A stretch of DNA of 64,000 nt, taken from assembly GCF_027594865.1 (NCBI RefSeq), contig NZ_CP089391.1:3936501-4000500 (forward strand). Direction: 5' to 3'. The notes under the pieces are model-generated. The model ran no database searches, was not told where the DNA came from, and worked only from the letters and a program-made list of their open reading frames with translations. A program made the translations under genes and the position numbers. Shown piece after piece: positions 86 to 58,326 of the stretch (position 1 is the first letter of the stretch; every line of letters begins with the position of its first letter). Origin of the DNA: Bradyrhizobium xenonodulans (lineage in GTDB: Bacteria > Pseudomonadota > Alphaproteobacteria > Rhizobiales > Xanthobacteraceae).

Positions 86-1444
86 CTACCTGCTCCCGTC
101 CGGCCCCATCACCAGGTCCGGCAGCCCGGTCGAGATCTCCGGCACGAAGCACAGCAACAGCACCGCGAGCATCATCAGCAGCACGAAGGGCAGGGTGCCC
201 CAGATTACCTCACGCAGGGGAATATCCGGCGCGACGTTGCGGATGACGAAGATGTTGAGGCCAACGGGCGGGTGGATCAGCCCCATCTCCATCACGATGG
301 TCATGACGACGCCGAACCAGATGATGTCGAAATTGGCGGCGCGGAGCGGCGGCAGGATGATCGGCGCGGTCATCAGGATAATCGAGACCGGCGGCAGGAA
401 GAAGCCGAGCACGACGACCATGACGAGGATCGCGAACAGCAGCTCCCAGCGCGGCAGGTGCATCGCGACGATGGATTCGGCGACCGACTGCGAGATGTGC
501 AGATAGCTCATCACGTAGGAGTAGAGCAGCGACATGCCGATGATCATCATCAGCATGGTCGATTCCCGGATCGTCGATTTCATGATCGGCGCGAGGTCGC
601 TCGGCCGCCACACGCTGTAGATCGCCGCGATCAGCGCCAGCGCGAGGAGGCCGCCGAGGCCGGCAGTTTCAGACGGCGTGGCGTAGCCGCCATAGAGCGC
701 GATCATGACGCCGGTGAGCAGCAGCACGAAGGGAATGACGCGCGGCAGCACGCTGAAGCGTTCGGCGAGCGTGTATTCGTCGCGGGCGAGGATCGCCGCC
801 TCCGGGCCGCCGTTCTTGTAGACGGCTTCCGCGGCCGCATATTCCTGGCGGAAGCGGATCACGGCATAGGCGCCGAACAGCGAGACCAGCAGCAGTCCCG
901 GGCCGATGCCGGCGAGGAAGAGCCGCCCGAGCGATTTCTCGGCGGCGACCGCAAACAGGATCATGGTGATCGAGGGTGGCAGCAGAATGCCGAGCGTGCC
1001 GCCGGCCGCGATGATGCCGGCAGCAAAGCCGCCGGAATAGCCGCGCTTGCGCATCTCGGGGATGCCGGCCGAGCCGATTGCCGAGCAGGTCGCCGGGCTC
1101 GAGCCCGCCATCGCCGCGAACAGCGCGCAGGCGAAGACATTGGCGACGCCGAGGCCGCCTGGGACGCGATGCAGCCAGGCATGCAGGGCCGAGTAGAGAT
1201 CCTGGCCGGCGCGCGATTTGCCGATCGCGGCGCCCTTCAGGATGAAGAGCGGGATCGACAGCAGCGTGATCGAGGCCATCTCCTCGTAGACATTCTGCGT
1301 CACCGTATCGAGGGACGCCGCGGGCATGTAGATGCCCATGAACAGGACCGCGACCGCGCCGAGGGCGAATGCGATCGGCATGCCCGAGAACATGATGACC
1401 AGCGTCGCTACGCCGTAGGCGATGCCGATACCGAAAACGCTCAT
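86..1444 (-). CDS. dctM: TRAP transporter large permease, DctM family
   Basis: Large membrane subunit of a tripartite ATP-independent periplasmic transporter, which moves organic acids or similar solutes inward using an ion gradient. The product is about 452 residues, normal for DctM, and is almost wholly hydrophobic with a dozen or so membrane segments. It has the family's glycine/proline-rich signatures, for example ILLPPS near residue 150 and PPVGLNIFVI close to the C terminus. I chose ATG at 1444 because it overlaps the stop of the upstream small permease as ATGA; an upstream in-frame extension to 1555 lies inside that gene. Third gene of the dctP-dctQ-dctM operon. The substrate cannot be read from the sequence. 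Confidence 0.93.
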   Translation of the reverse strand: MSVFGIGIAYGVATLVIMFSGMPIAFALGAVAVLFMGIYMPAASLDTVTQNVYEEMASITLLSIPLFILKGAAIGKSRAGQDLYSALHAWLHRVPGGLGVANVFACALFAAMAGSSPATCSAIGSAGIPEMRKRGYSGGFAAGIIAAGGTLGILLPPSITMILFAVAAEKSLGRLFLAGIGPGLLLVSLFGAYAVIRFRQEYAAAEAVYKNGGPEAAILARDEYTLAERFSVLPRVIPFVLLLTGVMIALYGGYATPSETAGLGGLLALALIAAIYSVWRPSDLAPIMKSTIRESTMLMMIIGMSLLYSYVMSYLHISQSVAESIVAMHLPRWELLFAILVMVVVLGFFLPPVSIILMTAPIILPPLRAANFDIIWFGVVMTIVMEMGLIHPPVGLNIFVIRNVAPDIPLREVIWGTLPFVLLMMLAVLLLCFVPEISTGLPDLVMGPDGSR

Positions 1445-1995
1445 GGTCGCTTGGCTCCTGCGAAAGGCAGCGCAAGCTGCACGAGAATCTGGACGCAGAG
1501 CAGGCTCATGCCGAACGCCATCAGGGAATAGGGGATGGCGAGCGGCGGCGACCACATCGAGTTCGAGACCTGGCCGTCGACATAGGCTTCGTGCGCCAGC
1601 GTCCAGGACTTCCAGGTGAAGAAGGCACAGAACAGGAAGGTCGCGACGTCGACCAGCCAGAGCCGGATCTTGTTGGCCAGCGGCGAGAGCAGGCCGACGA
1701 AGGCCTCGATGCCGATATGGCCGCGGTTCTGCTGCACATAGGCCGCCGTCATGAAGGTGGCGCCGACCAGCAGGAACACGGCGGCCTCGTCCTGCCAGTA
1801 ATTGGCGGCCTTGAACAAAGCGCGGCTGAGCACGCTGTAGCTCAGGATGGCGCAGGCCGCGACCAGCGCGATCGCGGCGAACACGACGATGATGCTGTTG
1901 AGGATGGCAAGACCGCGATCGATCGCTGCCGCAAGGCCGGTCCTTGCGGCAGCGTTGGCGTGATCGTCACGATCCGGAAGCGGACCGTGGCTCAT
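1441..1995 (-). CDS. dctQ: TRAP transporter small permease, DctQ family
   Basis: Small membrane subunit of the TRAP transporter, partner of the DctM-like protein encoded downstream. The product is about 184 residues with four hydrophobic segments and the usual EAFVGLLSP-like and WKSW-like loop motifs of DctQ. The N terminus (about 35 residues) is polar. ATG at 1995 overlaps the stop of dctP as ATGA, and the gene's own stop overlaps the start of dctM in the same way, so the three subunits are translationally coupled in the order P-Q-M. Confidence 0.92.
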   Translation of the reverse strand: MSHGPLPDRDDHANAAARTGLAAAIDRGLAILNSIIVVFAAIALVAACAILSYSVLSRALFKAANYWQDEAAVFLLVGATFMTAAYVQQNRGHIGIEAFVGLLSPLANKIRLWLVDVATFLFCAFFTWKSWTLAHEAYVDGQVSNSMWSPPLAIPYSLMAFGMSLLCVQILVQLALPFAGAKRP

Positions 1996-3014
1996 GCCGC
2001 GACGTCGGTGGCGAGCTTGAGCAGGTTTGCGGCGGTCGTGGTCTTGGCGCTGTAGTCCTTCCACGCGGTGTCGCGGGCGATGTCACGCCACTTGCCGACG
2101 GTGGCGGCATCGAGCGCAGAGACCTTGGCGCCGGCCTTCTCGTAGACCTTTGCGACCTCGACGTCGTCGTCCTGCGCGCCCTTGCGGCCGAAGGCCTCGA
2201 GCTCGGTCCCGACCGCGAGCAGCACGTCCTGCTGGTTCTTCGGCAGCTTGTCGAAGATCGCCTTCGACATCATCAGCGGCTCGAGCATGAACCAGTAGGA
2301 GGCGCCCGCGCCCGAGGTCAGCGACTTCGCGACCTCTTCGAGGCGGAACGAGATCAGGCTGGTCGAGGAGGTGATGCCGGCATCGCAGGCGCCGGTCTGC
2401 ATCGCCGCGTAGATTTCGTTCGACGGCACCGAGAGCACCGAGGCGCCGGCGGTCTGGAGCACCATGTCCATCTCGCGCGAGCCGCCGCGCACCTTCAGGC
2501 CCTTGGCATCTTCAGGGGCGACGATCGGCTTGGAACGGCTGGCGACGCCGCCGGCCTGCCAGACCCAGGTGAGCAGGATGATGCCCTTGTCGGCGAGGAA
2601 GTCGGTCAGCGCCTTGCCGACCGGCTCCTTCTTCCAGCGCATGCCCTGGTCGTAGGTGGTCACGAGCCCGGGCATCAGGCCGATATTGGTCTCCGGCAGC
2701 TCGCCGCCGGCGTAGGGCATCGGATAGAGGCTGATGTCGAGCGCGCCCTTGCGCATCGCGGAGAACTGCGCGTTGGTCTTGATCAGCGAGGAGTTCGGAT
2801 AGATCTCCGCGGCAATGTCGCCATTGCTGCGCTTACTGACTTCGGCGGCGAACATGCGGCAGAGCCGGTCGCGGAAATCGCCTTTGTCGATGGTGCCGCC
2901 CGGGAATTGATGGGAGATCTTCAGCGTGGTGGCGGCCTGCGCGGTGCCGGTGCCGAAGCGGAGAATGGCGGGTGCCGCGACTGCGGTCGCGATCAGATGG
3001 CGGCGCGTGAGCAT
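1992..3014 (-). CDS. dctP: TRAP transporter solute-binding protein, DctP family
   Basis: Periplasmic binding protein that captures the solute for the DctQM permease. The 340-residue product has an N-terminal export signal with a twin-arginine-like start (TRRHLIATA) and an Ala-X-Ala cleavage region near residue 27. The body has the family pattern GGELPETNIGLMPGL and RSKPIVAPEDAKGLKVR, typical of DctP proteins that bind carboxylates. ATG at 3014 is preceded by a good Shine-Dalgarno (AAGGGGA on the coding strand). A longer in-frame reading to 3269 would put non-signal residues in front of the export signal and is rejected. Confidence 0.93.
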   Translation of the reverse strand: MLTRRHLIATAVAAPAILRFGTGTAQAATTLKISHQFPGGTIDKGDFRDRLCRMFAAEVSKRSNGDIAAEIYPNSSLIKTNAQFSAMRKGALDISLYPMPYAGGELPETNIGLMPGLVTTYDQGMRWKKEPVGKALTDFLADKGIILLTWVWQAGGVASRSKPIVAPEDAKGLKVRGGSREMDMVLQTAGASVLSVPSNEIYAAMQTGACDAGITSSTSLISFRLEEVAKSLTSGAGASYWFMLEPLMMSKAIFDKLPKNQQDVLLAVGTELEAFGRKGAQDDDVEVAKVYEKAGAKVSALDAATVGKWRDIARDTAWKDYSAKTTTAANLLKLATDVAA

Positions 3015-49111: not shown

Positions 49112-49245
49112 AGCGTTGAGACACATTTCGTTTCTGGGATGAGCGCGTGAAGGACGAACCATATCTGCGGCCCGTGGCGGCGACAGATGACCGCGTGCGT
49201 CTGGCACAGAGGTTGCTTCGATCGACCGCAATCTGGGTCGATCCG

Positions 49246-51573
49246 ATGAGCTTCCGTCCCTTCACGAGCGAGTCCTACGCGCAAGACGACCGGCCCGAGG
49301 CGTGGCGGGACGTGCTGGCCGCCGTCGGCCTGCAACCGGCGACCGGACATTCCTTCCTCGACGGGCACGCGACGGCGTCGCATCGCCACGCCGCAGGCGT
49401 TGCGCTGACGCGCATGGCCGCGGGCGCGCAGAGTGTCGGTCCGCTCTCGCAAGCAAGCGAAGATCTTCCGATCGCGCTAATGCCGGTCGAGGACGGCATG
49501 GTGCTCAAGAGCGCCGGCGGCCATCGCATCGTTCCCGTCGGCCATCTCGTGTTGCTGCCGCGGAGCGGGGACTGGAGCATCGTCTTCCAGCGCGACATGC
49601 GCGCGATCGTGCTGTCGGTGACCTCCGAGGCGCTGCACGGACGTCTATCGGGTAAGCCGCGGCTGGGCGAGCCCCGCGTCGTCGCGCCCAACGGCTTTTC
49701 CGATGTGTTCTCGCGCCTGCTGGATGCTACCGCGCGCACGCTCGACACGCTCAGCGACGCCGAATGGAATGCGGTCGCGCAGAGCCTCGTCGATCTGCTC
49801 CTGACGCTCGCGCATCAACTGGCCGCTTCGACCTCAGATGCGGGATCGAGCGCGACGCAGGCCGCGCTGCTGCACCGGATCTGCCAGACTATCGAGCGTC
49901 GGCTCGACGATCCCGATCTGGTGCCGGCGCGCGTCGCGCAGGCCGAGGGGATCTCCGAGCGGTACTTGCAAAAGCTGTTCGAGACGGTTGGCGATAATTT
50001 TACCCATTACGTCCGCGAGCGCCGACTCCAGCGTGCCTGGGCCGATCTATCCAATCCGAACGAAGCACATCGCTCGATTTCGGAAATCGCCTACACCTAT
50101 GGCTTTGGCGATTCCGCGCATTTCAGCCGTGCCTTCCGCCATCGCTTCGGCCTGCCGCCGCGCGAATTTCGCCAGCAGGAGGCGGAGCGGGCGATCGCGC
50201 AGCACGGCCTGGCCGGACAGCGCGGCTGGCCGCAAGAGGCGCTGGCGCAGCTTCGCTCGCATCAGAGCGTGGAGGCGCGCAGCGGCGTCGCCAGTGCCGG
50301 CGGCGAAGAGCGGACGACAGCGGAGCGCAAGCATCATCACCTCCCGGTCGGGGCGGACCGCGTCCACTGGGGCTATTTCAGCCGCTCATTGCCGCCGCAG
50401 ATCGAGATCGCCTCGGGCGATACCATCACCATCGAAACGCTGACACAGCACGCTTCCGACGCGCCCGAGTTGATGATTGCCGGCGATGCCGGCGCGGAAA
50501 GCGTATTCGGCTGGACGCGGGACCAGAAGAACGTCGACCGCCGCGGCGCCGGACCGATGGACGCGAGTGTGTTCGGCCGCGGCGCCGGTGAAGGCTTTGG
50601 CGTCCACATCTGCACGGGCCCCGTGGCGGTGAAGGACGCCCAGCCCGGCGACGTGCTGGAGGTACGCATCCTCGACATGGTGCCGCGCGCCAGCCGCAAT
50701 CCGGGCCATGCCGGCCGCGTGTTCGGCTCCTCGGTCGCGGCGTGGTGGGGCTATCATTACAACGAGTTTCTTGCGCCCAAGCCGCGCGAAGCCGTCACCA
50801 TTTACGAGATATTCGACCACGCGGAGACACCGCACGCCCGCGCGCTCTATTCCTACCGCTGGGAGCCGCAGACCGATCCTTCCGGCGTCGTGCACGCCAC
50901 GTACGACTATCCCGGCGTTCCCGTTGCGCCCGCGACGATCAAGCGCCGCCACGCCGTGCTCGATGGCATCCGCATTCCGCTCCGTCCGCATTTCGGCGTG
51001 ATCGCGGTGGCGCCGCGCGAGGTCGATTTCGTCGATTCCGTGCCGCCGTCCTATTTCGGCGGCAATCTCGACAATTGGCGGCTGGGGAAGGGGTCGGCAG
51101 TCTATCTCCCGGTCTCCGTTCCCGGGGCGCTGCTGTCGGTCGGCGATCCCCATGCCGCACAGGGCGACGGCGAACTCAGCGGTACCGCGATCGAATGCTC
51201 GATGACCGGCACGTTCGAGGTGATCCTGCACAAGAAGGCCGATCTTGCCGGCCAGCCTTTCGCCGATCTCTCTTATCCCCTGATCGAGACCGAAACCGAC
51301 TGGGTGCTGACCGGATTCAGCCATCCCAACTACCTCGCCGAATTCGGCGCGCAGGGGCAGAGCGAGGTCTACGCAAAATCCTCGCTCGACCTTGCCATGA
51401 AGGACGCGTTCCGCAAGATGCGTCGCTTCCTGATGAACGTCAAAGGCCTCAGCGAGGACGAAGCGATCGCGCTGATGTCGGCGGCGGTCGATTTCGGCGT
51501 CACCCAGGTCGTCGACGGCAATTGGGGCGTGCACGCCATCCTGAGCAAGCGCCTGTTTCAGCAGGCGCCTTAA
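49246..51573 (+). CDS. AraC-type regulator fused to an acetamidase/formamidase domain
   Basis: About 775 residues combining two normally separate proteins. Residues 1-195 resemble the AraC-binding-2 sensor region (RPEAWRDVLAAVGLQ). Residues about 205-310 are an AraC DNA-binding domain with two helix-turn-helices (VAQAEGISERYLQKLFETVG and ISEIAYTYGFGDSAHFSRAF). A polar linker follows, and residues about 365-775 are a full acetamidase/formamidase (VHWGYFS, then GAGEGFGVHICTGPVAV, and GDPHAAQGDGELSGTAIE near 633). I see no break between them. GTG 49147 in the same frame is an alternative start (808 residues). The enzyme part may act as sensor or catalyst; both are inference. Confidence 0.9.
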   Translation: MSFRPFTSESYAQDDRPEAWRDVLAAVGLQPATGHSFLDGHATASHRHAAGVALTRMAAGAQSVGPLSQASEDLPIALMPVEDGMVLKSAGGHRIVPVGHLVLLPRSGDWSIVFQRDMRAIVLSVTSEALHGRLSGKPRLGEPRVVAPNGFSDVFSRLLDATARTLDTLSDAEWNAVAQSLVDLLLTLAHQLAASTSDAGSSATQAALLHRICQTIERRLDDPDLVPARVAQAEGISERYLQKLFETVGDNFTHYVRERRLQRAWADLSNPNEAHRSISEIAYTYGFGDSAHFSRAFRHRFGLPPREFRQQEAERAIAQHGLAGQRGWPQEALAQLRSHQSVEARSGVASAGGEERTTAERKHHHLPVGADRVHWGYFSRSLPPQIEIASGDTITIETLTQHASDAPELMIAGDAGAESVFGWTRDQKNVDRRGAGPMDASVFGRGAGEGFGVHICTGPVAVKDAQPGDVLEVRILDMVPRASRNPGHAGRVFGSSVAAWWGYHYNEFLAPKPREAVTIYEIFDHAETPHARALYSYRWEPQTDPSGVVHATYDYPGVPVAPATIKRRHAVLDGIRIPLRPHFGVIAVAPREVDFVDSVPPSYFGGNLDNWRLGKGSAVYLPVSVPGALLSVGDPHAAQGDGELSGTAIECSMTGTFEVILHKKADLAGQPFADLSYPLIETETDWVLTGFSHPNYLAEFGAQGQSEVYAKSSLDLAMKDAFRKMRRFLMNVKGLSEDEAIALMSAAVDFGVTQVVDGNWGVHAILSKRLFQQAP

Positions 51574-51587
51574 CAAGGACATCCAAA

Positions 51588-51971
51588 GTGAAATTCCACA
51601 TGATCGCCGGCGGTCCGAAGCCGGTCGCGCCCTTCAGCCACGCCGTGGAGACCGACGGTTTCGTCTTCGTCACCGGCCAGATGCCGGACACGCCACAAGC
51701 GCCGGGCGTGCTGCCCGACGGCATCGTCGCGCAGACCCGCGCTGTGATGGAGAATTTGAGGGTGGTTCTCGCCGGCCTCGGTCTCGGTCTCGAGCATGTC
51801 GTGATGACGCGCATCTATCTGACGCGTTTCAAGGAAGACTACGCCGCGATGAACGAGACCTATCGCAGCTTCTTTCCGCCGGACCGCCTGCCGGCCCGGA
51901 CCTGCGTCGGCGTCACCGGCCTGGCTTACGACGCGCTGATCGAGATCGATCTGGTCTGCCGCCGGCCGTGA
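51588..51971 (+). CDS. RidA/YjgF family protein
   Basis: A 127-residue protein of the RidA (reactive intermediate deaminase) family. It shows APFSHAVETDGFVFVTGQMP, then VLAGLGLGLEHVVMTRIYLTRF and the conserved arginine in LPARTCVGVTGL. RidA proteins hydrolyse enamine/imine intermediates from PLP or flavin enzymes. GTG 51588 follows AAGGA with 8-base spacing, 14 bases after the fusion gene's stop, so it is the last gene of the amide cluster. A longer in-frame reading from 50742 is a shadow of the fusion gene. Confidence 0.9.
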   Translation: MKFHMIAGGPKPVAPFSHAVETDGFVFVTGQMPDTPQAPGVLPDGIVAQTRAVMENLRVVLAGLGLGLEHVVMTRIYLTRFKEDYAAMNETYRSFFPPDRLPARTCVGVTGLAYDALIEIDLVCRRP

Positions 51972-51996
51972 GCCCGGCTTTCGGGACTGACGCTCA

Positions 51997-52033
51997 CACG
52001 AATCCCGGATGTCGCTCCGCTCATCCGGGCTAC
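51997..52033. repeat. REP-like palindrome
   Basis: CCCGGATG (52004-52011) and CATCCGGG (52022-52029) form a perfect 8-base stem over the loop TCGCTCCGCT. This CCCGGATGTCGCTCCGC unit is a frequent intergenic palindrome in Bradyrhizobium. It lies right after the RidA gene. Confidence 0.75.
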
Positions 52034-52039
52034 AAGACC

Positions 52040-52889
52040 TTGTGTTGCCCGACAGGCAAAACACACAACCTCAGGGTCCACCCGTCCGCGCTAAAATATT
52101 CCACTTTACCGAAATTCTGTTTTGCCGTAGATCGACGTCACCTCATCCCAGTCAGAGGGGCGGATCGCGATCGTCACGAAACGCGGGATGAGTGGCGGTG
52201 GACGCGGGCGGCGTCGGCGCGAAAGGTGGTTTGCAGGGCGGGTCACTCCGTGAGCAACGGCCTGCGCGCACACGACCGGTGCAGCCCGCGTACGGCAAAA
52301 TCGTGTGGTCCTGACGCCCGGGGTCTGTGCGTCAAGTCTTGCGGTGATGTAGCGGCCCGACCGGGTCCGCGCATCAGCTATCGGCAAGGCGACGGGGGCA
52401 ATAGTGCATCGCTCCCCGGGGAGAGCACGGCATAAGCCGTCAAACCACTGCGCAGGGAAGGCCGGATGTTTGGCTTCACCTGTATGCCGCTGTGCAGATT
52501 TTTGTAGCGCAACCTTCGCACAGTGGACCGTGGGTGCCCCGCCGGCACCCGGTCTTCCCTGCGCCCTCTGACAAAGGAGGGTGACGTGACCAGGCAAAGC
52601 TCGGGCGAAACAAGCCGCGAGAATGCGAAGTCGTGCGCGCTCCTTCAACGATATGAAGAGGAACGCTCAAGGCGTCGACTATCCGATAACAGTCGGACGA
52701 TCTGCAGGGTGACGAGATTGAGCTAATCCGCTTCCTTTGGTTTCGTCTCAAATTGCAACCCGCAGGTGCAAGAAGTCTTGATCGGTCGTGACCTAGAGGT
52801 GATCGCCCGACTTGAACGCAGGCCTCAGCCGCTGCGACTAACCCAGAGAGTGCATAGGGATCAGTGGAACGTGATCGCAACCCCTCTTC
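52040..52889. other. Structured noncoding region, likely multi-copy Bradyrhizobiaceae element
   Basis: About 850 bases with no convincing gene. Several complementary pairs are visible. Near 52041-52067 TGTGTTGCC meets GGCAAAACACA (imperfect). CTCATCCC (52142-52149) pairs with GGGATGAG (52185-52192). CGCAGGGAAGGCCGG (52451-52465) pairs with CCGGTCTTCCCTGCG (52549-52563), 15 bases with one G-T pair. CTGTGC (52490-52495) pairs with GCACAG (52518-52523), and GGGTGCC (52532-52538) with GGCACCC (52544-52550). Sequences of this kind resemble repeated noncoding stretches of Bradyrhizobium genomes as I recall them; copy number is unverified. Confidence 0.45.
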
Positions 52890-52914
52890 CTAAAGCACCA
52901 AAATGGTGCTTTAG
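52890..52914. promoter_or_regulatory. Perfect 11-base hairpin just before the TnpB-PspA gene
   Basis: CTAAAGCACCA (52890-52900), loop AAA, TGGTGCTTTAG (52904-52914). It ends 8 bases before ATG 52923, so it would occupy the ribosome-binding region of the transcript or serve as a DNA operator. Part of the arm (GTGCTTT) repeats again directly after it. Confidence 0.6.
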
Positions 52915-52922
52915 TGCTTTCC

Positions 52923-54077
52923 ATGAACCCATCGCCCAAAAACGCGCCGTCCGCGCTGCGTTACAGGCTTGCCCCTGACCCGGCCGCCAAGGCCGCGCTG
53001 GAGGCGACGTTCAGGGCCTATGACCGCATGATGGAGATTCTCGACGAGGTCGCGCGGAGCCATAATGTCGGCTCCAACGTGGTCCTGCTCCATGCCCACG
53101 CCTATGAGCCGATCCGGAAGCAGACCGCGCTGCCCTCGCGCCTGGTGACGCTGGGTCTGCGCGACCGCATGGACTATCGCACAGCGCAGGGCCGCCGCCT
53201 GCCGCTCGACGACAAACTCGCCAAGATCAAGGGCCCGGCCACCATTTCGATTGCGACCGTGGAGGGGCGCTTCAGCGTGCCCTTCGACTACGCCGGCTAT
53301 GCCGACGGGTGGGGACAGAGCGTGCCCGCGCGCCTGGTCCGCACCGACGCCGGCTTTGAAGTTCACTACGGCGTCACGCCGAACAGTCTGCCAGAGGAGG
53401 AGAACGCCATGGATACCATCGCTGCCGCCCCCGACAATTTCCTGTCCCGGGTCGGACGTCTAATCGCCGGGATCGCCTATGACGCGATCGAACAGGCGGA
53501 AGGGAAGAACAAGCTGAAAGTGGTTGGCCAGGCCATCCGCGAGATCGAACGCGCCGAGAGCGAGGCACGCGACGCGCTCGCGGCCGCGCGCGCCGAGGAA
53601 TACCGCCTCAACGCGCGCCGCACCGAGATCGAGCGCGAGATGACCGATCTCGCGCCCAAGATCGAGGGCGCGATTGCTGATAGCCGCGACGATCTCGCGC
53701 GCGCCGGCATCGCCCGGCAGATGGATCTGGAGGCGCAGTTCGAGGTGCTCTCCCGTGCCATCGACGAGAACAACGAGAAGATCGAGCAGTGCGTCACCTC
53801 GCTGCGTGCCGTGCTGTCGGCGCTCCAGGATGCCGAGCAGCGCCGCGCCGATCTCGAAAAGAGCGAGGCGGCCGCAAGCCACCAGGCCTCGACGTCGCCC
53901 CGGAAGCCGGGCGGCGCGTCGGCGGCCGCGAAGGCGCTGCGGGCGGGCAGGGCGGTCGCGCGCGCCACCGGCGTGCCGGCATCCATCCCGTTCTCAAGCG
54001 ACATCGACGAGCTCAGCACGTTGCATCGCGACAAGGAGATTGCAGCGAGGCTGGCGCGCTTGAAGTCGCGCTCCTGA
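52923..54077 (+). CDS. PspA/IM30 family protein with N-terminal TnpB-like (transposon) segment
   Basis: A 384-residue reading frame in two parts. Residues about 10-155 resemble the N-terminal lobe of TnpB/IS605 OrfB: a helical opening (SALRYRLAPDPAAKAALEATF), the helix YEPIRKQTALPSRLVTLGLRD, and a beta-barrel pattern ISIATVEGRFSVPF followed by ARLVRTDAGFEVHYGVT. The RuvC nuclease and zinc ribbon are absent. Residues about 163-384 form a PspA/IM30 coiled-coil protein (AGIAYDAIEQAEGKNKLKVVG, then AIREIERAESEARDAL). An internal ATG at 53409 with a strong Shine-Dalgarno would give PspA alone, 222 residues. PspA proteins protect stressed membranes. First gene of an operon with YqiJ and flotillin. 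Confidence 0.85.
   Translation: MNPSPKNAPSALRYRLAPDPAAKAALEATFRAYDRMMEILDEVARSHNVGSNVVLLHAHAYEPIRKQTALPSRLVTLGLRDRMDYRTAQGRRLPLDDKLAKIKGPATISIATVEGRFSVPFDYAGYADGWGQSVPARLVRTDAGFEVHYGVTPNSLPEEENAMDTIAAAPDNFLSRVGRLIAGIAYDAIEQAEGKNKLKVVGQAIREIERAESEARDALAAARAEEYRLNARRTEIEREMTDLAPKIEGAIADSRDDLARAGIARQMDLEAQFEVLSRAIDENNEKIEQCVTSLRAVLSALQDAEQRRADLEKSEAAASHQASTSPRKPGGASAAAKALRAGRAVARATGVPASIPFSSDIDELSTLHRDKEIAARLARLKSRS
53392..53411 (+). promoter_or_regulatory. Internal Shine-Dalgarno and start for PspA
   Basis: AGAGGAGG (53393-53400) lies 8 bases before an in-frame ATG (53409). Translation from here gives 222 residues, the same length as E. coli PspA, and leaves out the TnpB-like segment. Confidence 0.65.
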
Positions 54078-54087
54078 GTCATGTGTC

Positions 54088-54750
54088 ATGAGCGCTCTGC
54101 TCGAACACGTCATGTCGCCGGAGGTCAGGCCGTTCGCAATCGCGGCGGCCATGATCCTCATCGTCGGGTCGGTCGAGGTGATCTCGATGCTGGTCGGGGC
54201 CTCCTTGAGCGAGATGCTCGGCACCAACATCGATTTCGGTCACCCCAGCGACAATGGCGTCATCAACGCCATTTCCTGGATCAATGTCGGCGGGGTGCCG
54301 CTGCTGATCTTCCTGCTGCTGCTGCTCGGTGCCTTCTCCATCACCGGCTTCCTGATCCAGGACGTCGCGCGGATGGTGGCGGGCCCCTTGCCGGCGACGC
54401 TCGCCTCGGTCGGGGCGGTCGCGGTGTCGGTTCCGCTGGTCCGCGGCGCAAGCAGGGCCATTGCGCGGGTCATTCCCAAGGATGAGAGCTACGCGGTCGG
54501 CCTCGGTGATCTCGTCGGCCGTGTCGGCGAGGTCGTGATCGGTCCGCTCGACCAGGGACCGCCCGGCCGCGTCAGCGTCGCCGACGTCCACGGCAACCGC
54601 CATTTCGTTTGGGCGGTGGCCGCGCCCGCGTCGTCGCCTTTGCCGCAAGGAACCATGGTCCTGCTGGTCGATCGCGACGGCACCCGCTTCGTCGCGGTGA
54701 AGGCCGACGATGAACTCAAACCTTCCAAGCCGACTCTAAGCAACAGCTAG
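54088..54750 (+). CDS. yqiJ: YqiJ-like membrane protein (DUF1449, OB-fold)
   Basis: A 220-residue protein with two or three N-terminal membrane helices (residues about 14-40, 65-90, 95-118) and a C-terminal OB-like beta domain (VGLGDLVGRVGEVVIGPLDQG and RVSVADVHGNRHFVWAVA). This is the NfeD/YqiJ plan; in E. coli yqiJ directly precedes the flotillin gene yqiK, as here. It lies 10 bases after the PspA stop and 22 before yqiK. Likely a membrane partner of flotillin. Confidence 0.85.
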   Translation: MSALLEHVMSPEVRPFAIAAAMILIVGSVEVISMLVGASLSEMLGTNIDFGHPSDNGVINAISWINVGGVPLLIFLLLLLGAFSITGFLIQDVARMVAGPLPATLASVGAVAVSVPLVRGASRAIARVIPKDESYAVGLGDLVGRVGEVVIGPLDQGPPGRVSVADVHGNRHFVWAVAAPASSPLPQGTMVLLVDRDGTRFVAVKADDELKPSKPTLSNS

Positions 54751-54772
54751 CAAGTCATTATCGGAGAAAGTC

Positions 54773-56467
54773 ATGTTCGACATCGCAGTCCCGGCCATGA
54801 TCGGCGTCGCGCTGATCGTCGTCCTCGGGATCGTCTTCACCATCCTCTACAAGCGCGCCACCCGTGACGAGGCCTTCGTGCGCACCGGCCTCGGCGGCAA
54901 GAAGGTCGTGCTCGACGGCGGCGCCATGATCCTGCCGATCTTCCACTCCTATGCCAGCGTCAATCTGAAGACGCTGCGGCTCACCGTCGAGCGCAAGGAG
55001 CGGGAATCGCTGATCACCAAGGACCGCCTGCGCGTCGACATCGTCGCCGAGTTCTACGTGCGCGTCCGTCCCGACGATGAGAGCATTGCGCTGGCGAGCC
55101 AGACGCTGGGCGCGCTGACCAACGATGCGGAGGCGTTGCGCAACCAGGTCGAGGCGAAGTTCGTCGACGGCCTGCGCTCGGTGGCCGCGACAATGTCGAT
55201 TTTGGAGCTGCAGGAAAAGCGCAGCGATTTCGTCAAGCACGTGCAGGCGACCGTCGAATCCGACGTCAAGTCCAACGGGCTCGAACTTGAATCCGTCTCC
55301 CTGACCAAGCTCGACCAGACCGACGTCAAATTCTTCAACCCGGAGAATTTCTTCGACGCCGAAGGTTTGACCCAGCTCAAGACCGTCACCGAAACCCGCC
55401 GGCGAGATCGCAACTCGATCGTGCGCGACAACGAGGTGGCGATCGCGCAGAAGGACCTCGAGGCGCGCCAGCAGACCTTGACCATCGAACGCACCAAGAA
55501 GGAGGCGGAGCTCTCGCAGGAGCGCGACATCGCCAACAAGACCGCGAGCACCCGCGCCGAGGTTGCAACCGCAACCCAGACCGCGCGCCTGACCGAGGAG
55601 AACGCCCGCATCGATACCGACCGGGCCGTTGCCGAGAAGGAGGCCGGTGCCAAGCAGGTCAAGGAAACCGCGGTGATCGAGTCGGATCTGGCGATCAACA
55701 AGCGCAAGACCGACGCCCAGCGCGAAATCCAGATCGCCACGCAGGAGAACGAGATCCAGATCGCGGCCAAGAGCAAGCAGACCTCGGAAGCCGTCGCCGA
55801 AGCCAAGACGGCCGAAGCGCTTGCCGTGTCCGCCGAGGAAAAGGTCGTGACCGCACGCGCGGTCGAGGTCGCCGATCGTGCCCGTGTGACCCAGGTGCTC
55901 GCCGCGCGCACCGAGGCCGAACGCAAATCGACCGAGGTGATCGTGGCGGCCGAAGCCGAGAAGAAGGCCTCGCTCGATCGCGCCGAGGCCGTCAAGACGC
56001 TGGCGACGGCCGAAGCCGAGTCCAACAAGATCAAGGCGGTCGGCGTCAGGAACATCGGCGAAGCCGAGGCCGCCGTCATCACCATGAAGAATGAGGCGCA
56101 GAACAAGCTCGGCGCCAACGTCATCGATTTCGAGATCGCCAAGAAGCGGATCGAGACCATGCCGTCGGCGCTGGCCGAGATGGTCAAGCCGATCGCCAAC
56201 CTCAAGGACGTCCGCATCCTCCATACCGGTGGCGCGTTCGGCGGCAATGGTGCCGGGGGAGGCAATGTCGGCTTCGGCGAAGGCCTCGCCGGCGAGCTGC
56301 TCAAGGTGCACGCGCTGCGTCCGATGATCGACGAGATCCTGCGCCAGAGCGGCTTTGCGCCAGGCGAAGATCCCGTGAAGGCGCTGATCGGCGCGGTGAC
56401 GGGAAAGAGCAATGGTGCCGCAGCGCCGGCACCCGCGCCGGAGAAAACAAACTCCGCCGATCTATGA
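54773..56467 (+). CDS. yqiK: Flotillin family protein (YqiK-like)
   Basis: A 564-residue membrane scaffold protein. It has an N-terminal membrane helix (residues about 5-25), a PHB/SPFH domain (about 35-200, with LRLTVERKERESLITKDRLRVDIVAEFYVR) and a long coiled-coil rich in AEAE, KKEAEL and EAKTAEAL units. The C-terminal oligomerisation part ends in a glycine-rich loop and a short tail. Flotillins organise membrane microdomains. With PspA and YqiJ this forms a membrane-stress operon. Good Shine-Dalgarno (GGAGAAAG) before ATG 54773. Confidence 0.93.
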   Translation: MFDIAVPAMIGVALIVVLGIVFTILYKRATRDEAFVRTGLGGKKVVLDGGAMILPIFHSYASVNLKTLRLTVERKERESLITKDRLRVDIVAEFYVRVRPDDESIALASQTLGALTNDAEALRNQVEAKFVDGLRSVAATMSILELQEKRSDFVKHVQATVESDVKSNGLELESVSLTKLDQTDVKFFNPENFFDAEGLTQLKTVTETRRRDRNSIVRDNEVAIAQKDLEARQQTLTIERTKKEAELSQERDIANKTASTRAEVATATQTARLTEENARIDTDRAVAEKEAGAKQVKETAVIESDLAINKRKTDAQREIQIATQENEIQIAAKSKQTSEAVAEAKTAEALAVSAEEKVVTARAVEVADRARVTQVLAARTEAERKSTEVIVAAEAEKKASLDRAEAVKTLATAEAESNKIKAVGVRNIGEAEAAVITMKNEAQNKLGANVIDFEIAKKRIETMPSALAEMVKPIANLKDVRILHTGGAFGGNGAGGGNVGFGEGLAGELLKVHALRPMIDEILRQSGFAPGEDPVKALIGAVTGKSNGAAAPAPAPEKTNSADL

Positions 56468-56507
56468 ATGCCGGTTCATTGCTACGGAGAATTCGAAACG
56501 ATATGAA

Positions 56508-56545
56508 CTGGCGCGTTGCGTGTCTCACGTCGCGCAACGCGCCAG
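56508..56545. repeat. Perfect 13-base inverted repeat after the flotillin gene
   Basis: CTGGCGCGTTGCG (56508-56520) and CGCAACGCGCCAG (56533-56545) are exact complements over a 12-base loop. No T-run follows, so it is either a stable 3' end structure or a protein-binding site between the flotillin stop (56467) and the next gene (56622). Confidence 0.6.
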
Positions 56546-56621
56546 AACACTGATCGATCGCGTGTTGGTCTCTCGATCATGGTCCGGGCGCCGGAGCCTG
56601 TTTCGATCGGGAGAATTTCAA

Positions 56622-56990
56622 ATGAAGTATTTTCTGTCTGGACTGATCGCGATCGGTCTTTCAATCGCTGCCGCGCCGTCGTTCGCCGCCGACGCCCGCA
56701 ACGTCACCGTCGTCAACGAGACCGGCTATGCCATCAAATTCCTGGGCTTCAACGCGCCCGACGATGGCCTGGACGAATGGGAGAACGAGCTCGAGAAGGT
56801 TTTGCAGAACCAGGCCAGCACCTATGTCGAGTTCGACGAGGACGACGAGGGCTGCGTCTGGAACATCCGCGTCGACTGGCAGAGCTATGACGAGGCCGTG
56901 CTCTGGAAGAACGTCAATCTCTGCAAAATGACCGCGCTGCGGCTGCGCTACGATTCCGGCACCAAGACCACGTCGTTCATCGCCGAGTAG
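56622..56990 (+). CDS. Small secreted acidic protein of unknown function
   Basis: A 122-residue protein with a signal peptide (residues 1-23, ending SFAAD). The mature domain of about 98 residues is acidic and Trp-containing (VTVVNETGYAIKFLGFNAPD, then EGCVWNIRVDWQSYDEAVLW) with two cysteines. The pattern of beta strands around 'VVNETGY' recalls small periplasmic proteins of unknown function in Bradyrhizobium. GGGAG precedes ATG 56622. A terminator-like hairpin follows. Confidence 0.78.
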   Translation: MKYFLSGLIAIGLSIAAAPSFAADARNVTVVNETGYAIKFLGFNAPDDGLDEWENELEKVLQNQASTYVEFDEDDEGCVWNIRVDWQSYDEAVLWKNVNLCKMTALRLRYDSGTKTTSFIAE

Positions 56991-57008
56991 GACGGCCTGA
57001 CCTGACCC

Positions 57009-57034
57009 GAGGAGGGGCCTTCCGGCCCTTCCTC
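57009..57034 (+). terminator. Probable terminator hairpin
   Basis: GAGGAGGGGCC (57009-57019) pairs with GGCCCTTCCTC (57024-57034) over a TTCC loop, with one G-T pair, 19 bases after the stop at 56990. The T-run after it is weak. Confidence 0.6.
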
Positions 57035-57065
57035 CACGCTTTGTGCCAGATCGCGAATTCGTCCT

Positions 57066-57093
57066 TTGCAAGCGCAAGCGGCTTTGTTATACG
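57066..57093 (+). promoter_or_regulatory. Candidate promoter for tRNA-Asn
   Basis: TTGCAA (57066-57071) and TATACG (57088-57093) with a 16-base spacer, ending 30 bases before the tRNA 5' end. Confidence 0.4.
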
Positions 57094-57123
57094 CACCCGC
57101 GCGCGGACGACTTGTTCGCCTTT

Positions 57124-57198
57124 TCCTCGGTAGCTCAGCGGTAGAGCATCCGACTGTTAATCGGATGGTCGCTGGTTCGAATCCAGCCCGGGGAGCCA
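57124..57198 (+). tRNA. tRNA-Asn (anticodon GTT)
   Basis: A 75-base cloverleaf. The acceptor TCCTCGG pairs with CCGGGGA, with one G-T pair. The anticodon stem TCCGA/TCGGA has loop CTGTTAA, giving anticodon GTT. The T loop is TTCGAAT and CCA is encoded. Confidence 0.97.
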
Positions 57199-57225
57199 AA
57201 ATCCAATAAATTCAAAGACTTGATT

Positions 57226-57245
57226 ATGTTGCGCTTGCGCAACAT
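57226..57245. terminator. Palindrome between tRNA-Asn and a convergent gene
   Basis: ATGTTGCGC (57226-57234), TT, GCGCAACAT (57237-57245): a perfect 9-base stem with a 2-base centre. It may end transcription from the tRNA or from the convergent AraC gene; no T-run is present. Confidence 0.45.
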
Positions 57246-57336
57246 TGCCCTCGCCTGTGCCTTGGGGAAGCGCCCGCGGGCGATTTCCCGCGCGAATCCC
57301 TCGAATTGGCGCGGCCCTGAGCACGGGGCTGGGTGC

Positions 57337-58326
57337 CTAGAATTCGTGTCCGGACGGTTCGAGATTCTGGCGGGGGGCTCCGCCTCCCAGCGTCTGCGAC
57401 GGGTGCTCGCCGAACATTGCGAAGTAATACTGCGAAAAGCGCCCCAGCTCGTAGAAGCCTTGCTCCATTGCCACCGCTGCGACGGTCGTCGAGCCCGGGG
57501 CGCTCGCGTGCAGGATGGAATGGGCCGTGCAAAGGCGCTTGTGCCTCAGGAACGTCACCGGGCCCAAACCGAACACCTCTTGAAAGGCGCGATGGAGGGT
57601 GCGGCGCGACACACCGAGGGCGGCACAGATCTCCGAAACATGCACCGGCCGTGTGCCGGCCTCGTCGAGATGCTGTTCGACCCGCCGGATCAGCCGCCTG
57701 GCCGAAGGCAGCCAGCCGGTGTCGTCGGGCGGCAGTGACGACATGACGTTGGCCGCCATGCATTCGACGATCGATCGTTTCCAGAAATCCGCCGTCGACG
57801 GCGTCAATCCGTGCGTGTTGCTGCGCAGGTGCGACATGATCCGGACCAGGCGGCGTGAGGCAATCGCGCCGCTCTCGCGGTCCGCACGGAAATGGCCTCG
57901 GCTGCGCCAGGTGTCGGGATCGCCCAGCCGGGCCTCGCCGCCGAACAGGGACGCGACCTCGGTGAGGTCGAAGCGTATCGCGGCGTACGCGGACGGGCCG
58001 TGAAAGACGCCGTCATGCTCGAGCAGCGGCGGAATGACCAGCACGTCATTGAGCTGCATGTCGAACGACCAGTGGGCGACGCGCTCTTGCGCCGCCAGCA
58101 GCATTCCGATGATCAGCTTGTTGTCACTGGAGACGCGCTGCGTGCGCATGCCGACGTTGAAGGTACCGATGCTGAGCGAGAAATCGCCGATACCAACATG
58201 CGACAGGGTTCCGCGCAGACGCCCGCGTCCGAGCTGCATCACGTCGACATGCGAGCCGTGAACGGCCTGGTGAAGGCCTTCGAAACCGTCCAGCTTCCGC
58301 GAATCAACCAGAAGGAACTGCCCCAT
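57337..58326 (-). CDS. AraC family transcriptional regulator
   Basis: A 329-residue regulator. The N-terminal region (1-210) is a cupin-like sensor, and residues about 218-320 form an AraC DNA-binding domain (VSEICAALGVSRRTLHRAFQEVF and AAVAMEQGFYELGRFSQYYFAMFGEHPSQTL). The N-terminal part resembles regulators of the type that read ethanolamine or aromatic amines, but its ligand cannot be told. It is divergent from the FGE-like gene, which may be its target. Confidence 0.88.
   Translation of the reverse strand: MGQFLLVDSRKLDGFEGLHQAVHGSHVDVMQLGRGRLRGTLSHVGIGDFSLSIGTFNVGMRTQRVSSDNKLIIGMLLAAQERVAHWSFDMQLNDVLVIPPLLEHDGVFHGPSAYAAIRFDLTEVASLFGGEARLGDPDTWRSRGHFRADRESGAIASRRLVRIMSHLRSNTHGLTPSTADFWKRSIVECMAANVMSSLPPDDTGWLPSARRLIRRVEQHLDEAGTRPVHVSEICAALGVSRRTLHRAFQEVFGLGPVTFLRHKRLCTAHSILHASAPGSTTVAAVAMEQGFYELGRFSQYYFAMFGEHPSQTLGGGAPRQNLEPSGHEF

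Follow-up and report, generated by a model that had tools for sequence, protein, structure and literature searches.

A TnpB-derived REC lobe fused in frame to PspA, a candidate DNA-reading regulator of its own operon

The N-terminal part of a PspA fusion protein encoded in Bradyrhizobium xenonodulans is a REC lobe (WED-REC-WED, residues ~15-158) derived from TnpB, and this is an old fusion that evolves under purifying selection. Judging from sequence comparisons, we favour with moderate confidence the view that the captured lobe may act, by reading DNA, as the regulator of the operon that encodes it, [lobe-PspA]-YqiJ-flotillin, tied there to stress-sensing PspA. A more ambitious formulation, on which our judgement is evenly balanced, would have the half of an RNA-guided transposon nuclease that reads the TAM serving as a protein-only, sequence-specific transcription factor, with an R73/Q73 specificity switch that co-evolved with its operator and with a hard-wired connection to a membrane-stress protein of the ESCRT-III family; one gene would then provide regulator, sensor and, through an internal start, free effector.

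The window (the whole stretch of DNA analysed, 64,000 nucleotides) carries the fusion as a frame at 52914/52923-54077 on the plus strand, of 387 or 384 amino acids depending on the start, the last 222 of which are PspA/IM30. A YqiJ-like protein and then a flotillin follow (Table 1). Bradyrhizobium supplies the nearest named relatives. Operon neighbours are kept, YqiJ in 84/84 loci and flotillin in 82/84, and no regulator gene is conserved beside the operon across these 84 loci, where RidA occurs in 35 and AraC-FmdA in 34. Elsewhere in the window, an 808-residue frame (49147-51573, plus strand) combines an AraC-type regulator (PF14525, PF12833) with an acetamidase/formamidase (PF03069), and a similar long match is found in 34 of the 84 loci; a tRNA gene recognised by Rfam lies downstream of the operon (57124-57195, plus strand).

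Table 1. Features of the lobe-PspA operon in the window
Feature	Position	Strand	Remark
Putative operator palindrome TAAAGCAC-N7-GTGCTTTA	52891..52913	+	Sole perfect site in own genome; same place in relatives
Long-form start codon	52923..52925	+	GTG at 52914 is an alternative; without Shine-Dalgarno site
TnpB-derived REC lobe (WED-REC-WED), 162 aa	52923..53408	+	Profile and structure matches
R73 codon, start of third REC helix	53139..53141	+	Co-varies with operator position 5
Shine-Dalgarno site AGGAGG for PspA, within the lobe-PspA frame	53395..53400	+	
PspA/IM30, own internal ATG at 53409	53409..54077	+	PF04012, E 4.8e-12
YqiJ-like membrane protein	54088..54750	+	PF21001, E 1.3e-19; PF07290, E 2.1e-10
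Flotillin (SPFH/band 7)	54773..56467	+	PF15975, E 2.5e-30; PF01145, E 6.9e-16

An initial annotation, made from the letters of the sequence, had described this frame as a TnpB N-terminal lobe fused to PspA and lacking both the RuvC domain and the zinc ribbon; profile, structure and conservation bear out the fusion, and a Pfam scan of the whole protein bears out the absences, the frame passing straight from lobe into PspA. In profile comparison with hhalign the lobe aligns to TnpB residues 8-170 (P 2.4e-9 over 143 columns), with a score of 67 vs 23 for the best of 200 decoys. The TnpB family gave rise to CRISPR-Cas12. Structural comparison, which the annotation had proposed, agrees: among the 50 matches listed for the lobe, the first 49 are TnpB, Cas12 or Fanzor, and with the fused model Foldseek ranks Vipp1/PspA highest. 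The profile check that it had also proposed came out divided, since the comparison against profile and decoys is significant while the curated TnpB family models, taken alone, yield only sub-threshold Pfam matches of no significance. NCBIfam and PHROGs scans returned nothing relevant for the lobe, and a sequence search of the PDB with it gave no TnpB match. Membership of the C-terminal part in PspA/IM30 is clear from a PF04012 score above cut-off and from its ESCRT-III-like helices.

Two properties shape what the lobe might do. With the RuvC domain absent and no Rfam-recognised RNA adjacent (a search of 50000-57500 brings only a tRNA to the cut-off), reading would probably be by protein alone and not RNA-guided. 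Net charge, moreover, runs from -4 to +4 in 24 lobe sequences vs +5 to +14 for TnpB lobes (n=22), a near neutrality, unlike basic TnpB lobes, which indicates that a general nucleic-acid surface is gone. That same charge, together with the stable linkage to YqiJ and flotillin and the otherwise structural role of PspA as a membrane protein, would suit an explanation that we regard as unlikely, namely that the lobe is a protein-protein adaptor without nucleic-acid binding which tethers a long-form minority of PspA to YqiJ, flotillin or another partner, while an unlinked regulator reads the palindrome described below.

The same fusion was sought in other genomes, as the annotation had suggested: lobe is joined to PspA with no stop in frame in 125 of 126 loci (some genomes counted twice), and among named genomes, where 182 stretches encode a relative, the best 80 of the 182 are all fused. 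The lobe is present in 21 of 60 sampled genomes (that of the window, 19 of the 35 other members of its genus, and a single genome from another family), and PspA as query finds matches in 25 of the same 60; the sole same-genus genome that has this PspA and no lobe match is G033, where a contig end cuts the lobe. Broader sampling recovered the lobe in 25 of 397 genomes of the order (in one case as a broken remnant), in 8 of 76 genomes of the order of G945, and as matches in 7 of 385 genomes of the class, one of these by chance. Across three samples, ten family groups hold it (f1, f11, f20, f24, f26, f110, f128, f31, f40 and f155). Two candidate lobe loci, L032 and G075, were rejected: each matches a chemoreceptor-like frame by chance.

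Among 65 close sequences, pairs with dS of 0.1-1.0 give a median dN/dS of 0.101 in the lobe (2073 pairs) and of 0.103 in PspA (2068 pairs). These values dispose of one alternative in the annotation, a relic read through in frame. TnpB is a transposon protein of which only the first half is left here, and one genome, G762, does contain a broken lobe; even so, chance read-through of an inserted TnpB gene is scarcely credible for a lobe with this dN/dS that is kept in ten family groups of the three samples, and G762 has lost PspA too. As a separate observation on the same 65 close sequences, synonymous sites are unusually conserved at lobe codons 93-103 and 147-154 (window 53199-53231 and 53361-53384), apart from the Shine-Dalgarno stretch.

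The annotation had noted one open frame. That fused frame is conserved, and PspA alone is very probably also made, from an internal start, beside lobe-PspA. An internal ATG of PspA is present in 124/124 loci with the PspA landmark, and a Shine-Dalgarno match of at least 5 nt precedes it in 120/124, vs 12/575 for other in-frame ATGs; this count covers 124 of the 126 loci, as L173 was missed by the landmark and L214 is without PspA, and includes some genomes twice. Among 31 non-redundant proteins the start position is Met in 30 and Val in one. The proline codon just before it is CCA in 64 of the 65 close sequences, CCA making up 116 of 1116 proline codons overall. At the long start, by contrast with the internal one, a Shine-Dalgarno match of at least 5 nt is found in 0/125 loci. 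Because PspA keeps its own ATG and a strong Shine-Dalgarno site within the fused frame, both long and short forms are to be expected. One might go further and suppose that PspA alone reaches useful amounts, the lobe frame being a leader or an independent regulator and read-through into PspA incidental. Such a proposal draws on the strong internal start, on the lack of a Shine-Dalgarno site at the long start and on L214, where the lobe persists without PspA; we nevertheless judge it very improbable in view of a stop-free frame in 125 of 126 loci (some genomes twice), though the junction between lobe and PspA does vary in length by whole codons.

Directly 5' of the long start lies the palindrome AAAGCAC-N7-GTGCTTT. 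A strict test (AAA...TTT, at least 6 pairs) is passed by 125 of 137 lobe loci vs 0 of 10 lobe-less sister operons, and a palindrome of some kind, pairing at 6 or 7 of its 7 positions, occurs in 96 of 101 upstream regions vs ~3% of shuffles. Some members of the close group have a second palindrome that overlaps the first and scores equally, and palindromes are weak or degenerate at L180 and in some of the f11 loci. In distant families the palindrome stays at its place while both arms change together (GGAC/GTCC, ACAC/GTGT, TGAC/GTCA, GGAT/ATCC). The window's own genome, searched as one contig of 8,276,659 bases, has one perfect site and 7 further places at 3 mismatches, a number on a par with that for a control pattern (12). 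From this placement and distribution we infer that the lobe may bind the palindrome as its operator.

In many distant loci the palindrome sits, by eye, between TTGAAA-/TTGTAA-like and TATAGT-/TTATGT-like hexamers, the latter lying 6-7 nt before the ATG (also by eye), a placement which suggests leaderless mRNA; before the window's gene a consensus scan returned no promoter, and the hexamers there are poor. These details also bear on whether the lobe might bind RNA instead, either a leader hairpin from the transcribed palindrome or an unrecognised guide-like RNA, with translation of the long or short form under its control. TnpB lobes contact their RNA (PMC10097598, in the available part), the palindrome could form a stem, and the conservation of synonymous sites at codons 93-103 and 147-154 would fit. 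We consider RNA binding improbable, however, given that non-wobble mismatches break pairs in several loci (e.g., GTACTTT or GTGACTT arms), that Rfam recognises only the tRNA at 57124 near the operon, and that hexamer spacing in distant loci, by eye, suggests transcription starting at the ATG.

An indirect pointer to DNA reading is the co-variation of one lobe residue with one operator position. Residue 73 (in LPSR, at the start of the third helix) is R in 123 of 137 loci and Q in 14; in TnpB relatives the aligned residue is invariably Q. With operators assigned by a score that favours AAA...TTT palindromes, every R73 locus (123/123) shows C as position 5 in one half-site or both (both in 110), while in the Q73 loci position 5 is G or T and never C (14/14). 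Among 75 non-redundant rows residue 73 is the only column that separates both classes perfectly, and it alone of 159 columns follows the exceptional rows L163, L214 and L215; in 96 of the 159 lobe columns the clades have different majority residues. When the tree is built with column 73 left out, both traits change three times, always together, and two of these changes are forced by well-supported branches; with three joint changes a sign test cannot reach 0.05, and adding more genomes for the R/Q comparison brought few new independent changes. The other alternative in the annotation, a captured nucleic-acid-binding domain, fits these observations, the co-variation of residue 73 with the palindrome lending indirect support to DNA as the ligand.

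In the class sample PspA matches occur in 53 of 385 genomes, and 15 loci have E <1e-40, 6 with the lobe and 9 without it. In those nine and in a further lobe-less operon, L135, a separate gene whose start resembles that of ribbon-helix-helix (RHH) proteins stands upstream of pspA (10/10 by eye, 4/10 by a strict pattern), and no AAA...TTT palindrome is present within 900 bases in any of the ten. YqiJ and flotillin follow in the lobe-less operons inspected (L135, L188, L192, L193 and L195). The RHH-like gene was found in 0 of 25 same-genus genomes. RHH family models gave no match above cut-off for six of its proteins, with a weak CB_ParB_C hit (E 0.25) in one, and a PDB search with the RHH-like alignment returned low-complexity and repeat matches. 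The lobe thus takes the place that a probable DNA-binding regulator, the RHH-like gene, has in the sister operons. Some RHH-like genes in the L188-L196 set and L135 carry promoter palindromes of their own, such as GTATGCAAATGCATAC; at another locus, L137, a 335-residue frame (1192-2199, reverse strand) has PspA-like helices behind an apparently membrane-spanning N-terminal part.

Two losses are instructive. Among the loci examined, the lobe occurs without PspA only in L214 and, broken, in G762. L214 has lost PspA and retains an open lobe frame of 185 residues (1390-1947, reverse strand of the locus) with the palindrome, followed by YqiJ and flotillin. G762 has lost PspA and has a broken lobe, with no palindrome visible by eye, while YqiJ remains; lobe and PspA having decayed together, this genome does not separate their roles. 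An adaptor, with the palindrome left to an unlinked regulator, would leave unexplained why lobe and palindrome were kept in L214, why the palindrome is associated with the lobe at all, why the own genome has a single perfect site, and why residue 73 alone tracks palindrome position 5.

Under the preferred reading, in which the lobe regulates its own operon, a promoter overlapping the palindrome would give a leaderless or nearly leaderless mRNA, from which the first start would yield the long form, lobe-PspA, and the internal start PspA alone. Two lobes would occupy the operator, one on each half-site with its residue 73 reading position 5, and so bound would repress the operon while the membrane is intact. 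Under membrane stress PspA might assemble on the membrane and pull the long form off the operator, inducing the operon; this is the least certain step of the scheme. If true, it would explain in simple terms how a PspA system lacking a separate regulator gene nearby can sense stress and control itself. Because the natural R/Q switch comes with matching operators, the idea can be put directly to the test in vitro.

A precedent for such control exists in E. coli, where the DNA-binding protein PspF, which regulates the operon of PspA, is held by PspA and set free when the membrane is stressed. The scheme proposed for lobe-PspA is alike in having PspA hold the regulator of its own operon until such stress occurs; PspF, however, is a separate AAA+ activator, whereas the regulator proposed here is fused and TnpB-derived. 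Flotillin/YqiJ operons, with an RHH transcription factor in some PspA operons, appear in the available part of a survey of PSP systems (PMC11237479), and they have the same partner genes as the lobe-PspA operon. According to the same source, <2% of PspA homologues are fused to other domains; its available part names no TnpB-PspA fusion, the stem "transpos" being absent from the main text, and the available part of PMC9239133 names none. Our literature search, with most subscription journals beyond its reach, found no description of the fusion.

On the TnpB side, the WED and REC domains of ISDra2 TnpB read the TAM duplex (PMC10097598, in the available part), and it is this TAM-reading part which is kept in the lobe fusion; the fusion differs in lacking RuvC, the zinc ribbon and any known guide RNA, and in having a charge near neutral. 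If the lobe reads DNA alone, it would show which part of the TAM-reading surface suffices. There is a likeness, too, to the TldRs, nuclease-dead repressors resembling TnpB, which have lost nuclease activity and retain guide RNA and DNA binding (PMC13418256, in the available part): in both cases a TnpB descendant without nuclease activity is tied to non-transposon genes, and here too a repressor is proposed. TldRs, in contrast, keep guide RNA, target binding and an inactivated RuvC, whereas the lobe fusion is without any RuvC and is proposed to read its palindrome as protein only. Should that prove correct, the lobe would mark a second route from TnpB to regulator, beside the RNA-guided one taken by TldRs.
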